NCBI RefSeq assembly: GCF_000373925.1
Contig: NZ_KB892764.1
Coordinates: 1 to 47,294, forward strand
Length of the DNA stretch: 47,294 nucleotides
From: Actinopolymorpha alba DSM 45243
Lineage (GTDB): Bacteria > Actinomycetota > Actinomycetes > Propionibacteriales > Actinopolymorphaceae
Reading direction: 5' to 3'
Notes under the pieces: generated by a model
What the model was told of the DNA's origin: nothing
Database searches by the model: none
The model's input: the letters and a program-made list of their open reading frames with translations, nothing else
Made by a program: the position numbers and the translations under genes
Part shown: positions 20,004 to 22,861 of the stretch, one piece after another
Numbering within the stretch: the stretch's first letter is position 1
Layout: the number at the start of each line of letters is the position of its first letter

Positions 20004-20627
20004 TCAGCCGAGCTCCAGGGCCGTGCAGCGCCAGCGCCCGTCGAGTCCTTCGATGCGCAACGCCACCGCGCGCGACCGTCCGCCGTGGCGGACGTGAACC
20101 GACGCCTCGGCGATCCCGTCGCACGGCTCGCAGACATGCACCGACCGGACGATCGCCCGCTCACGTCCGCCCCGGCCGATGAGCCCGGCGGAAGCGGATC
20201 CGACGGCGCGTACCCGAGCGATGACGTCGCCGTAGACGTCCGCGTTGGTCCAGCGCAGGAGCTGTGCGGATGGGCGGTCGCCGGTCAACACCTCCACGAG
20301 GGCCTGGACGAACCGCCCCGACCACGACCGTGGGTCCGGCAGTGCGAGCCGCGGCGTCGGCTGGGGCGCGAAGAACGGGTCCTCCGACTCCTCCTCAGAC
20401 GTGTCGTCATCAACGACACTCAGATGGCGCTGCGCGGCTGTGACCGGGGCCGAGGGACCGGTCGCCAGATCGAGCGCGAGTGAGCCATGCGTGAGTGGCT
20501 CCAGACCTGACGCGGCCTCGTGGTGGTTGTCGTACGGCGGCTCGGTCGCAGGGGCGGGCACCCGCCGGGGAAGGTGGCGAACGGTGCTCTCGGCTCTGGA
20601 CCGCGGCAGGGTCTGGGTGGCAGTCAT
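20004..20627 (-). CDS. Rv3235 family protein
   Basis: The 207-residue protein has a disordered N-terminal half (Pro-, Ser- and Glu-rich, with DDDTSEEESEDPFF) and a folded C-terminal half. That half runs from SWSGRFVQALVEVLTGDRPSAQLLRWTNADVY through VRSVHVCEPCDGIAEASVHV to GLDGRWRCTALELG. This C-terminal pattern matches the actinobacterial Rv3235 family, encoded close to secA in many genomes. The fold looks like an alpha-beta domain of the NTF2/TPR-free type, but no active site is recognisable and no function is established. The start is the ATG at 20627; it sits downstream of the LysM gene on the same strand with a 59-bp gap, so the two may be co-transcribed. Confidence 0.75.
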   Translation of the reverse strand: MTATQTLPRSRAESTVRHLPRRVPAPATEPPYDNHHEAASGLEPLTHGSLALDLATGPSAPVTAAQRHLSVVDDDTSEEESEDPFFAPQPTPRLALPDPRSWSGRFVQALVEVLTGDRPSAQLLRWTNADVYGDVIARVRAVGSASAGLIGRGGRERAIVRSVHVCEPCDGIAEASVHVRHGGRSRAVALRIEGLDGRWRCTALELG

Positions 20628-20686: not shown

Positions 20687-21565
20687 TCAGGCCGGCGGAG
20701 GTGGGGTGAGCACCTGGCCGGGAAGGACCATGTCGGGGTTGTCTCCCACGACCTGGCGGTTGGCGTAGTACCAGCGGTGCCACTCGCGGTTGATCTCGGC
20801 GTTGCTCGCTCCGTCAGGAAGGTGCTGCCTGGCGATGTCCCACAGGTTGTCGCCGCGCTTGACGACGTACTGCTCCTCCGCCTGGACATGACGGGTGGGC
20901 GGTCGGAGCACAGGGTCGGTGGTCTGAGGGCGTTCGGGATTGGGCAGGCCGGCCTGGCTGGAGGTCGGCCGATCAGGCATCGGCAGCTCGTCGCGGATGT
21001 CGGAGCCACCGGGACGGTCGAGGTTGGGCAGCTGAATGCCGCTCGGGAGTTGGTTGTCCACTGTCCCGGCGCGGTCGAGGTTGGGCAGCTGGATACCGCT
21101 CGGGAGCTGGGTGTCCACCGTGCCGGCGCGGTCGAGGGAGCCCGGACGATCAAGGCCGGGCAGTAGCTGAGCGGCCGCGGCGGCCTGGGTGGGCTGGTTG
21201 ACGGTCGCCGCGTGGGCAGGCAGCGCACCGAGCACGGGTCCTGCGGCGACCGAGATGCCGAGCGCCACCCGCGCCACCCGGCGATAGACGGCGGGCGTCA
21301 TGCGTTCGGCGAGCGCGCCACAGGCGGATCCGAGCGCACCGGGAATCGCCGAGAGCGCCATCAGAAGGGTGCCGAGGGCCAGCCAGGCGAAGCACGCCCA
21401 GGCCAGCAACGCCACCACGAAGATCAGTAGGGAGTCGAAGGTCGGATTGCCGCCCTGGACTGCGCTCCAGCTTCCCGCGGTGAGCCATCGGAGGAGCCAG
21501 CCGCCGACCGCGAACGCGAGGAGCACGCCGATCGGTGAGAGCACCCGGCGAGCGATCCTCATCAT
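20687..21565 (-). CDS. LysM domain membrane protein
   Basis: The protein has 292 residues from the ATG at 21565. A second ATG directly follows at 21562, and GGAGGTCA before them decides this start over 21604. Residues 7-60 hold two transmembrane helices, and a third hydrophobic stretch ends in a likely processed segment (LGALPAHAATVN). A low-complexity region follows with an in-frame 19-residue repeat (LDRAGTVDTQLPSGIQLPN type). A C-terminal LysM-like domain (YVVKRGDNLWDIARQHLPDGAS ... NREWHRWYYANRQVVGDNPDMVLPGQVL) closes the protein and probably binds peptidoglycan. A direct-repeat site just upstream of the start (21582-21601) suggests regulation by the nearby small HTH protein. Similar LysM proteins lie in this region in other actinobacteria. 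Confidence 0.8.
   Translation of the reverse strand: MMRIARRVLSPIGVLLAFAVGGWLLRWLTAGSWSAVQGGNPTFDSLLIFVVALLAWACFAWLALGTLLMALSAIPGALGSACGALAERMTPAVYRRVARVALGISVAAGPVLGALPAHAATVNQPTQAAAAAQLLPGLDRPGSLDRAGTVDTQLPSGIQLPNLDRAGTVDNQLPSGIQLPNLDRPGGSDIRDELPMPDRPTSSQAGLPNPERPQTTDPVLRPPTRHVQAEEQYVVKRGDNLWDIARQHLPDGASNAEINREWHRWYYANRQVVGDNPDMVLPGQVLTPPPPA
21016..21134 (-). repeat. 57-bp tandem repeat inside the LysM gene
   Basis: The unit beginning GGTCGAGGTTGGGCAG at 21016 recurs at 21073, and its first bases recur again at 21130, with an exact 57-bp period. This keeps the reading frame and encodes the 19-residue units of the linker between the membrane helices and the LysM domain. Two full copies and one partial copy are present. 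Confidence 0.85.
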
Positions 21566-21581
21566 TGACCTCCAAACCGTT

Positions 21582-21601
21582 CGTTTGCTTGCGTTTGCTT
21601 T
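21582..21601. promoter_or_regulatory. Tandem 10-bp direct repeat, site A (upstream of LysM gene)
   Basis: CGTTTGCTTG at 21582-21591 is followed at once by CGTTTGCTTT at 21592-21601, a 10-bp period that puts both copies on the same DNA face. It lies 17 bp upstream of the ATG at 21565, where transcription or translation starts would be. The same 10-mer pair recurs at 21826 and 22764. It is read as the binding site of a regulator that binds head to tail, probably the HTH protein at 22488-22721. The rest of the 362-bp gap 21566-21927 holds only site B and no gene. Confidence 0.6.
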
Positions 21602-21825
21602 CATACTCTCCCGTTCGTTGACCTGTCAAGGTAGATCCCAGGATGTCCCGGATGTGCAGGCTTCCACACCTGCCGCGAACGCCGGCTGACCAGGGGTTTG
21701 GCGCTCGCTCCAGCGTGGCGCACTGTCGCCGCGCGCGGCCACGGTCGACTTCTCCGTTGCCGCCGTCGCCGCGTGGCACTGCCTTACAAAGGTCCGATCT
21801 GACCTTCGTCGCGCTCGAAAGCATG

Positions 21826-21845
21826 CGTTTGCCTGTGTTTGCTTG
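21826..21845. promoter_or_regulatory. Tandem 10-bp direct repeat, site B
   Basis: CGTTTGCCTG at 21826-21835 is followed by TGTTTGCTTG at 21836-21845, with the same 10-bp period and the same orientation as site A. It lies about 83 bp before the GTG at 21928 on the plus strand, inside the divergent gap with the LysM gene, where it could act as an operator for the plus-strand gene. Confidence 0.55.
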
Positions 21846-21927
21846 TAGAAACGTCCAGTCAGGTCGCTGACATGCCGTCGCGAAGGGGGCCCGGTATCGG
21901 CGACTTGGTGGCAGTACGGTGGGGTCC

Positions 21928-22482
21928 GTGCGCTGGGAGAGTCTTTTCGCCGACCTCGATGCTCAGATGGAGGAGCTCGAGGCTGCCGAACTCGCGTCAG
22001 AGGTCGCCGACCGTACGCGCCGTGAGGTCGCGAAGTTCCGTCTCGTCGACCGGCTCCGCCCGACCTTCGGGCATCCGGTCACGGTCTTCACCCTCGGCGG
22101 TGGCAAGGTCGCCGGGCGGGTCGCCGGCGTCGGCTCCGACTGGCTTCTCGTCTCAGAGGGCCGGATGTATGAGGCGCTGGTCCCGCTGGACGCGATCACG
22201 GGCATCACCGGTCTGGGCTCCCTCACCGCCGCACCCGGCAGTGAGGGCAAGGTCGCCGCCAAGCTGACGCTCGGCTATGCGTTGCGCGGCATCGCCCGCG
22301 ACCGTGCGCCCGTCGCGGTGGCACTGCGCGACCAGACAGTCGTCACCGGCACCATCGACCGGGTGGGCGCTGACTTTTTCGAGATGGCCGAGCACGGACC
22401 GGCGGAGATCCGGCGTACGCGAGACATCACCGGCGTGCGGACGGTGCCGTTCGCCGGTGTGGCGTTCGTCCGGCGTTCATGA
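21928..22482 (+). CDS. Conserved actinobacterial protein of unknown function
   Basis: This is a 184-residue protein from the GTG at 21928, which gives the start MRWESLFADLDAQMEELEAAE; another GTG lies at 21919. An N-terminal helical segment (about 1-45) is rich in Glu and Arg and could form a coiled coil. Two beta-rich segments follow with the pattern GHPVTVFTLGGGKVAGRVAGVGSDWLLV and VAVALRDQTVVTGTIDRVGADFFEMAE, read as a repeated small-barrel (Sm- or SH3-like) unit. I have met similar proteins in actinobacteria near this locus, but no function is known. It is convergent with the HTH gene with only 5 bp between stops, and direct repeat B lies upstream. RNA or DNA binding is possible from the fold only. 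Confidence 0.7.
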   Translation: MRWESLFADLDAQMEELEAAELASEVADRTRREVAKFRLVDRLRPTFGHPVTVFTLGGGKVAGRVAGVGSDWLLVSEGRMYEALVPLDAITGITGLGSLTAAPGSEGKVAAKLTLGYALRGIARDRAPVAVALRDQTVVTGTIDRVGADFFEMAEHGPAEIRRTRDITGVRTVPFAGVAFVRRS

Positions 22483-22487
22483 GCGGA

Positions 22488-22721
22488 TCAGAAGTCGTCG
22501 GCCTTGCCGTAGGGGTGTGCGGAGATGAACTCTCGGGTCTCCGAATACATCCGTTCGATGTATTGCTCCAGGGCGGCAGCCTCGACCCGCCACTGGCCGC
22601 GCCCGCCGATCTTGATCGCCGGAAGCTCGCCGCTGCGGACCAAGGCATAAGCCTGCGCGGACGAGATGTTGAGGACCTCAGCAACATCGGCCAGCTGCAG
22701 AAACCTTGGTGTGGCAGGCAA
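22488..22721 (-). CDS. Small excisionase/BldC-like helix-turn-helix protein
   Basis: The gene encodes 77 residues from a TTG at 22719-22721 preceded by AAGGAG with 6-nt spacing, which fixes the start well inside a longer open frame. The single domain LQLADVAEVLNISSAQAYALVRSGELPAIKIGG is the MerR/excisionase-type winged helix-turn-helix (HTH_17). It is followed by GRGQWRVEAAALEQYIERMY and a short acidic tail. The family includes phage excisionases and the Streptomyces regulator BldC, which binds direct repeats head to tail. There is no integrase nearby, so a regulatory role is favoured. A matching tandem repeat (site C) lies 43 bp upstream of its start, consistent with autoregulation. Confidence 0.82.
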   Translation of the reverse strand: MPATPRFLQLADVAEVLNISSAQAYALVRSGELPAIKIGGRGQWRVEAAALEQYIERMYSETREFISAHPYGKADDF

Positions 22722-22763
22722 TGCGATCTCCTTCCGGACTTGGTGCTTTGCAAGTCTGCCACG

Positions 22764-22783
22764 CGGTTGCTTGCGGTTGCGTT
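22764..22783. promoter_or_regulatory. Tandem 10-bp direct repeat, site C (upstream of the HTH gene)
   Basis: CGGTTGCTTG at 22764-22773 is followed by CGGTTGCGTT at 22774-22783. It matches sites A and B in 10-bp period, orientation and core (TTGCTTG). It lies 43 bp before the TTG start of the HTH gene on the minus strand, in the promoter position, and next to the first DnaA box. Confidence 0.6.
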
Positions 22784-22786
22784 CAC

Positions 22787-22795
22787 TTGTCCACA
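22787..22795 (+). promoter_or_regulatory. DnaA box (left)
   Basis: TTGTCCACA is a perfect match to the strong DnaA box of high-GC actinobacteria. It lies in the 287-bp gap 22722-23008 and is followed by GG, so it forms a 12-bp arm (22786-22797) of an inverted repeat with the second box. It abuts direct repeat C. Confidence 0.6.
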
Positions 22796-22852: not shown

Positions 22853-22861
22853 TGTGGACAA
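22853..22861 (-). promoter_or_regulatory. DnaA box (right, inverted)
   Basis: TGTGGACAA is the reverse complement of the TTGTCCACA consensus. Together with its flanks (CCTGTGGACAAG, 22851-22862) it is an exact 12-bp inverted copy of the left box, with 53 bp between the arms. The gap contains no gene. Confidence 0.6.

Follow-up and report, generated by a model that had tools for sequence, protein, structure and literature searches.

A gene for a 77-residue winged-helix protein in Actinopolymorpha alba DSM 45243, together with tandem 10-bp direct repeats in its vicinity, looks like a real small regulatory circuit whose regulator and repeats, judged from their sequences, have been kept together across many actinomycete families. 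We regard it as likely that this protein (hereafter the HTH protein) is a dedicated regulator with a BldC-type fold, which would read 10-bp repeats arranged head to tail and would control a LysM gene, usually a divergent gene of unknown function (the DUF gene) as well, and in this organism's family its own gene. A preliminary description of the 47,294-nucleotide stretch of DNA analysed here (the window), made from its letters alone, had proposed an arrangement of this kind, and its interpretation is supported overall. A literature search yielded no paper describing this circuit; subscription journals lay mostly outside that search, and the result is weak evidence of absence. If it operates as proposed, the system offers a small, self-contained and testable protein–operator pair shared by many actinomycete families. 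It would also provide a named proposed regulator for a widely conserved pair of LysM and putative Hfq/Sm-fold genes that has so far been free of any assigned function.

Gene layout and repeat pairs in the window

From left to right, the locus carries a DUF6459 gene (minus strand), the LysM gene (minus), the DUF gene (plus), the HTH gene (minus), an unclassified gene (plus) and a ParA/MinD-like gene (plus). The features on which our argument relies are given below in window coordinates.

20004-20627, minus strand: DUF6459 gene, leftmost of the described genes
20687..21565, minus strand: LysM protein gene, proposed main target (listed open reading frame runs to 21604)
21582..21601, plus strand: tandem 10-bp pair CGTTTGCTTG CGTTTGCTTT, exact match; proposed LysM operator, directly after the predicted minus-strand -10 box
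21600..21629, minus strand: predicted LysM promoter, found by inspection; -35 box TTGACA (21624-21629), 18 bp, -10 box TATGAA (21600-21605)
21826..21845, plus strand: tandem 10-bp pair CGTTTGCCTG TGTTTGCTTG; proposed operator of the DUF gene
21919..22482, plus strand: DUF gene
22488..22721, minus strand: HTH gene, TTG start, encoding the 77-residue winged-helix protein (Pfam HTH_17); proposed binder
22753..22758, minus strand: possible -10 box of the HTH gene, CAGACT, suggested by its conserved GTGGCAGACT/GTGGCAAACT context
22764..22783, plus strand: tandem 10-bp pair CGGTTGCTTG CGGTTGCGTT; proposed autoregulatory HTH operator, just upstream of the predicted -10 box
22787..22795, plus strand: DnaA-box-like TTGTCCACA, beside the HTH-upstream repeats
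22853..22861, minus strand: second DnaA-box-like TTGTCCACA, on the opposite strand

The start of the LysM gene as listed (21604) would fall inside the repeats, and therefore the ATG at 21565, which lies behind GGAGGT, is the likelier start. For the DUF gene, the GTG at 21928 is probably the start codon because many relatives begin with M-R-W.

The three repeat pairs, all in the same orientation, are confirmed at the positions (21582, 21826 and 22764) and with the letters that had been quoted in the preliminary description. Each matches CGKTTGCNTNNGKTTGC without mismatch, and the window holds no further match with up to two mismatches. Taken alone, the window is mildly unusual at this threshold, with three matches found versus 0.92 expected and three being reached in 7 of 100 shuffles. 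Nor are the repeats frequent throughout the genome, which was one way in which the original proposal might have failed: exact matches to GKTTGCNNNNGKTTGC number five in 7,983,713 bases, three of them within 1.2 kb at this locus and the remaining two adjoining unrelated open reading frames, versus two for the pattern read backward. When one mismatch is allowed, 74 matches to GKTTGCNNNNGKTTGC are found genome-wide versus 98 for the backward pattern, and thus only near-perfect copies carry meaning, whereas looser ones are background. Because CGTTTGNNNNCGTTTG can match a true site, the backward pattern serves as a control that is only partly independent. The half-site in this genome reads GTTTGCNTNY.

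Conservation among relatives and across the class

The HTH gene was found in 42 of 57 related genomes at an E-value of 1e-10, and 40 stretches from HTH-bearing relatives were compared around the locus; together with a later set of stretches, these hold the best HTH match of 39 genomes besides that of the window. Among the 57 relatives, the perfect site GTTTGCNTNNGTTTGC occurs at 42 places in 35 genomes, and 41 of these places are at a LysM, DUF or HTH gene, three of the 41 (in G018, G015 and G037) being placed only by coordinates that adjoin DUF matches. No wider regulon was found in this set. The sole perfect pair away from the locus (G001:C7:28755, equivalent to L336 position 2256) lies between serA-like and methyltransferase-like open reading frames.

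Perfect sites are present in 35 of the 42 genomes that carry the HTH gene versus none of the 15 that do not. These 15 genomes represent one family that seemingly also is without the target genes (no DUF match in G008 or G011), and in these 15 the co-occurrence of site and HTH gene is inseparable from the co-occurrence of site and LysM/DUF genes. The seven relatives from the window's own family (f1; L061-L067) again carry sites upstream of the LysM, DUF and HTH genes. Some of these sites have one mismatch, and the DUF site falls below the one-mismatch cut-off in L061 and L066. The pair at 21582..21601 is conserved in all of these loci and far beyond. A second site like that at 21826..21845 is present in most relatives within f1, whereas in most other lineages the LysM-DUF interval contains one site. 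Kribbella loci combine one LysM-DUF site with an array upstream of the HTH gene that is less well preserved and often has three copies.

A survey of 394 genomes of the class detected the DUF gene in 146 and the HTH gene in 176. The sample drawn from the class comprised 60 further stretches, 80 named loci (80 of at least 500 confirmed loci), 30 loci of one further family and 20 more stretches. Within 450 bp upstream of the DUF gene, a pair of GTTTG motifs with a spacing of 10 and at least 9 of 10 matches is present in 136 of 163 windows. These windows span many actinomycete families and all differ in sequence, although close relatives are among them. Five dinucleotide shuffles gave 1, 3, 1, 1 and 1 such windows, and the sixth base of the repeat was ignored in this count. 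Conservation of the pairs upstream of LysM and DUF orthologues, which the preliminary description had named as its own test, is therefore borne out. Among the named loci, 35 of 37 windows carry the pair.

Both spacing and orientation are strongly constrained. Perfect GTTTG pairs occur in 98 windows at a spacing of 10, in two at a spacing of 6, and in none at spacings of 7-9 or 11-15. With 9 of 10 matches, spacings of 6, 14 and 15 are represented by 54, 16 and 15 windows, respectively. The pair is directed towards the DUF gene in 133 cases and away from it in three.

The array is present in 124 of 141 stretches that also contain the HTH gene (17 are without it) and in 12 of 22 stretches that do not. 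Most of the array-bearing stretches without an HTH gene come from Nocardioides, where the gene is located elsewhere in the genome. In family f23 the HTH gene likewise lies elsewhere and the pairs are degenerate. The genome of L242 (G067:C48) has no HTH match at an E-value of 1e-14, yet it retains a weaker GTTTA-type pair, GTTTAACCTC GTTTACCTTC. Family f39, whose loci are among the 17 without an array (0 of 7), has a strongly diverged HTH gene and no LysM match between DUF6459 and DUF; in this family the target gene, the proposed regulator and the site seem to have decayed jointly. The f39 loci without an array are L246-L250, L268 and L269.

Repeat number varies among lineages, with pairs in most and three or four copies in several. 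Upstream of the HTH gene in L071, L077, L087 and other Kribbella loci, three 10-bp copies are followed further on by GTTTGTCCCC, by eye in the same 10-bp phase, and this extended array may mark a longer filament. GTTTA-type 10-bp pairs are seen upstream of LysM/DUF in L240, L241 and L242, where the HTH gene is non-adjacent or was not found, and perhaps represent a further re-coding or a relic.

The repeats stay with the LysM gene

The constant partner of the site is the LysM gene rather than the DUF gene. In Nocardioides, the HTH gene has been separated from LysM and DUF, and the moved LysM-DUF pair keeps its site in 8 of 12 windows. Four Nocardioides loci (L335, L337, L338 and L339) have lost even the adjacency of the DUF gene, which is displaced too, and the site remains beside LysM. 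One reversed-pattern control was left out of use because it is not independent of true sites. The local regulon of LysM and DUF genes that was originally proposed is thus consistent with the near-exclusive location of perfect sites in relatives, with the amendment that the DUF gene is the less constant of its members.

The relationship between array and predicted LysM promoter was compared among loci grouped by residue 37 of the HTH protein, which is lysine (K37) in the window's lineage and glutamine (Q37) in others. Of 83 K37 loci, 41 have a TTGAC box (GTCAA on the plus strand) no more than 60 nt from the array, versus 3.6 expected from mononucleotide shuffles, and 26 of these 41 boxes sit 21-23 nt beyond the array, the distance expected of a LysM -35 box. 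A -35/-10 pair can be recognized in 57 of the 83 loci, and in 47 of the 57 the -10 box ends between 5 nt inside and 8 nt before the array; the shuffle control covers the TTGAC step alone. Of 33 Q37 loci given the same search, nine yielded a TTGAC box and three a promoter, and therefore this promoter-array geometry is not general. In K37 lineages, the array lies at the predicted transcription start of LysM, a usual position for a repressor site, which makes repression the simplest action.

A site upstream of the HTH gene in two families

The region upstream of the HTH gene was scored with a matrix derived from 27 LysM-DUF sites of lineages other than f1 and Kribbella. A site was recognized in all eight f1 loci (the window and 7 of 7 relatives, p = 0.005 each) and in 17 of 25 Kribbella loci, always in the same orientation, although the 25 include at least three genomes counted twice under different locus identifiers. 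Elsewhere such sites are rare, being found in 7 of 63 other K37 loci and in none of 44 Nocardioides-type loci. Autoregulation of the HTH gene, which had been proposed without restriction as to lineage, is therefore likely in the window's family and Kribbella, but not general.

The HTH protein resembles BldC but is not BldC

The HTH protein matches Pfam HTH_17 (7.6e-14) and the excisionase family TIGR01764, both above the curated cut-offs. Its AlphaFold2 model (pLDDT 88.7) has helices at residues 10-17 and 21-30, a wing region with a strand at 44-47, and a C-terminal helix at 48-68. The top Foldseek matches are the BldC-DNA complexes 6ama and 6amk (E 8.5e-3), with none at an E-value of 1e-3 or below. 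Structural comparison aligns 54 residues with 6ama_A (Z 8.0, 2.3 A) and gives Z 7.8 for the second BldC complex, tied with Z 7.6 for the excisionase of phage Pukovnik (Xis; 4j2n). Pairwise comparison with BldC shows 29% identity over 63 residues (E 0.023). Searches of PDB sequences with the HTH protein returned no match at E 0.001. A profile search of this database likewise found no significant match, with BldC absent from the nine matches at E 10.

As described in PMC5859096, BldC of Streptomyces binds direct-repeat sites of variable repeat number (structures 6ama and 6amk), and each protomer takes 9 bp of the form AATTXXXX(C). BldC and the HTH protein both consist of a small winged helix-turn-helix alone, lacking a dimerization or effector domain, and both are associated with same-orientation repeats in variable number, where for the HTH protein the sites are compared and binding by it is our inference. 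They differ in several respects. The repeats at this locus have a period of 10 bp rather than 9 bp, at which no perfect pair was found, and the half-site GTTTGCNTNY departs from that of BldC. The base-reading residues Lys26 and Arg30 of BldC align with Ala22 and Ala26 of the HTH protein. Moreover, BldC governs a global regulon, whereas the HTH protein appears dedicated to one locus. The true BldC orthologue of this genome is encoded elsewhere (C47:47933-48133, 85% identical), which rules out that the HTH gene is the BldC orthologue. Given the 10-bp spacing, the low identity, the two alanines and the separate orthologue, the HTH protein probably works like BldC, by analogy of fold and site arrangement, but is not a member of BldC proper. 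The likeness to BldC drawn in the preliminary description accordingly extends to fold and tandem direct repeats and stops at repeat period and base-reading residues.

The excisionase-type proteins (TIGR01764; Xis 4j2n) share the HTH_17/excise domain and match the fold equally well. In contrast to these, the HTH gene is chromosomal and lies in a conserved order beside the LysM, DUF6459 and SAF-type genes. No recombinase is present among six proteins scanned at the window locus, which is conserved across families. Membership in NF047737 (MAD1, methylation-associated defence) is not indicated, as the HTH protein scores 29 bits versus a curated cut-off of 80. A 63-residue HTH_17 protein gene in L325, considered as a BldC candidate, is not BldC. 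PMC13118837 concerns BldC and the secA-mtrAB region of Streptomyces and contains no LysM or operator result.

Residue 37 of the HTH protein tracks the sixth base of the repeat

The comparison started from 230 oriented stretches. Removal of 59 that carry HTH without DUF, 22 that carry DUF without HTH and 8 duplicates left 141, and three of these rows could not be parsed. An array is present in 85 of 94 K37 loci, 84 of which have a C at the sixth position of one or both repeats (both in 68). Among 36 Q37 loci, 34 have an array, with GTTTGA in both repeats in 26, A and G in four, and a C in two. Loci with arginine at this position are mixed (two AA, two CC and four without an array). In these sequences, residue 37 is thus seen to track the sixth base, K37 accompanying GTTTGC and Q37 accompanying GTTTGA, with few independent origins. 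The Fisher value for this association, 1.8e-25, treats related loci as independent and is not readable as a probability.

Q37 occurs in the G319 family, f4-g6 and f4-g14, and K37 in f4-g8 and f4-g12, which points to more than one switch. In the DUF protein tree, however, well-supported branches force only one K/Q change (the best tree has seven), and few independent events therefore underlie the link between residue and base. When changes in residue and base were formally tested for independence, well-supported branches of the DUF tree yielded one pair, which gives the test no power. Residue 37 aligns with Arg41 of BldC, which is absent from the BldC contacts described in section 10 of PMC5859096. 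Natural re-coding from GTTTGC to GTTTGA along with one residue of the putative regulator would open the direct-repeat code of BldC-type proteins to a swap experiment.

Proposed mechanism and alternative explanations

In the circuit that we favour, the HTH protein would bind the tandem 10-bp repeats head to tail, one protomer per repeat. Its principal target would be the LysM gene, usually with the divergent DUF gene, and in the window's family it would control its own gene. With the repeats immediately following the -10 box, where LysM transcription is predicted to start, its simplest action would be to repress by blocking RNA polymerase. What we infer from sequence comprises the identity of the binder, how it oligomerizes, whether it represses or activates, and all that concerns the signal.

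The repeats might instead be a real operator for another protein, namely BldC or a different HTH_17/MerR protein, with the HTH gene being a linked gene that serves some other function. Candidate binders exist, since the genome has 14 HTH_17 matches and a true BldC orthologue; L242 keeps its degenerate pair in a genome where the HTH gene was not detected, and the HTH promoters of most lineages are without a site. Nevertheless, we judge this explanation distinctly unlikely. The base at position 6 of the half-site tracks residue 37 of the HTH protein, and the HTH gene and site co-occur among the relatives, though the genomes without both come from the one family seemingly without targets. The site also lies upstream of the HTH gene itself in two families, and BldC, as described in PMC5859096, reads 9-bp repeats of another sequence.

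The pair at LysM is located at or just after the predicted transcription start and thus in the 5' leader, where the repeats might act in RNA rather than as a protein-binding site in DNA. This is highly improbable, as the predicted HTH -10 box has a pair with this orientation upstream of it; another, 244 bp away, is upstream of DUF and relative to DUF lies on the opposite strand; and the exact 10-bp phasing fits the helical turn of DNA. Still more improbable is a core promoter or sigma-factor motif common to the divergent promoters: the pairs do abut -10-like boxes, but separate -35 (TTGAC) and -10 boxes are recognizable, and each genome has the motif almost exclusively at a single locus. Chance similarity, which would agree with one-mismatch matches being no commoner than those of the backward control, is hardly credible given the conservation of the pair in windows across the class versus its rarity in shuffles.

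A possible Sm-type target and DnaA-box-like sites

The DUF protein (187 residues) has no Pfam or NCBIfam match. Its AlphaFold2 model (pLDDT 91) has strands that suggest two Sm-like barrels together with a long N-terminal helix. Hfq structures (3hfo and others) match this model with a Foldseek probability of 1.00 (E 3.8e-3) and Z 7.9 on residues 113-187, whereas 2x4j matches residues 45-187 with Z 12.7. The Hfq matches cover the second barrel only, which resembles Hfq in being an Sm-like barrel with an N-terminal helix; the DUF protein differs in its 187-residue length and its apparent two barrels with a long N-terminal helix. From its predicted structure, the DUF protein is possibly a candidate Sm-type protein in actinomycetes. 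Actinomycetes are usually described as lacking Hfq.

The region upstream of the HTH gene is also rich in sites of the TTGTCCACA type, which we take to be putative DnaA boxes from their resemblance to the consensus. Both occurrences of TTGTCCACA in the window are upstream of the HTH gene. Across loci, T[TC]NTCCACA is found 154 times in 51.8 kb of HTH-upstream sequence versus 49 times in the remaining, mostly coding 1,363 kb of these stretches, which corresponds to an approximately 80-fold greater density. Perfect copies of TTGTCCACA are present upstream of the HTH gene in 37 of 198 windows versus 0.2 expected.

A more elaborate version of the circuit can be imagined. A BldC-fold protein would use a 10-bp code of its own, with base 6 dictated by residue 37 and switched together with it on more than one occasion, and would repress LysM and an Hfq-like Sm gene, while its own promoter would be read by DnaA via the conserved TTGTCCACA-type boxes. 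We consider this full combination speculative and fairly unlikely. If it were true, envelope functions and perhaps RNA regulation would be tied to the replication cycle. The DnaA-box-like sites are distributed over all three classes of HTH protein, being present in 59 of 93 K37 loci, 28 of 36 Q37 loci and 5 of 8 R37 loci.
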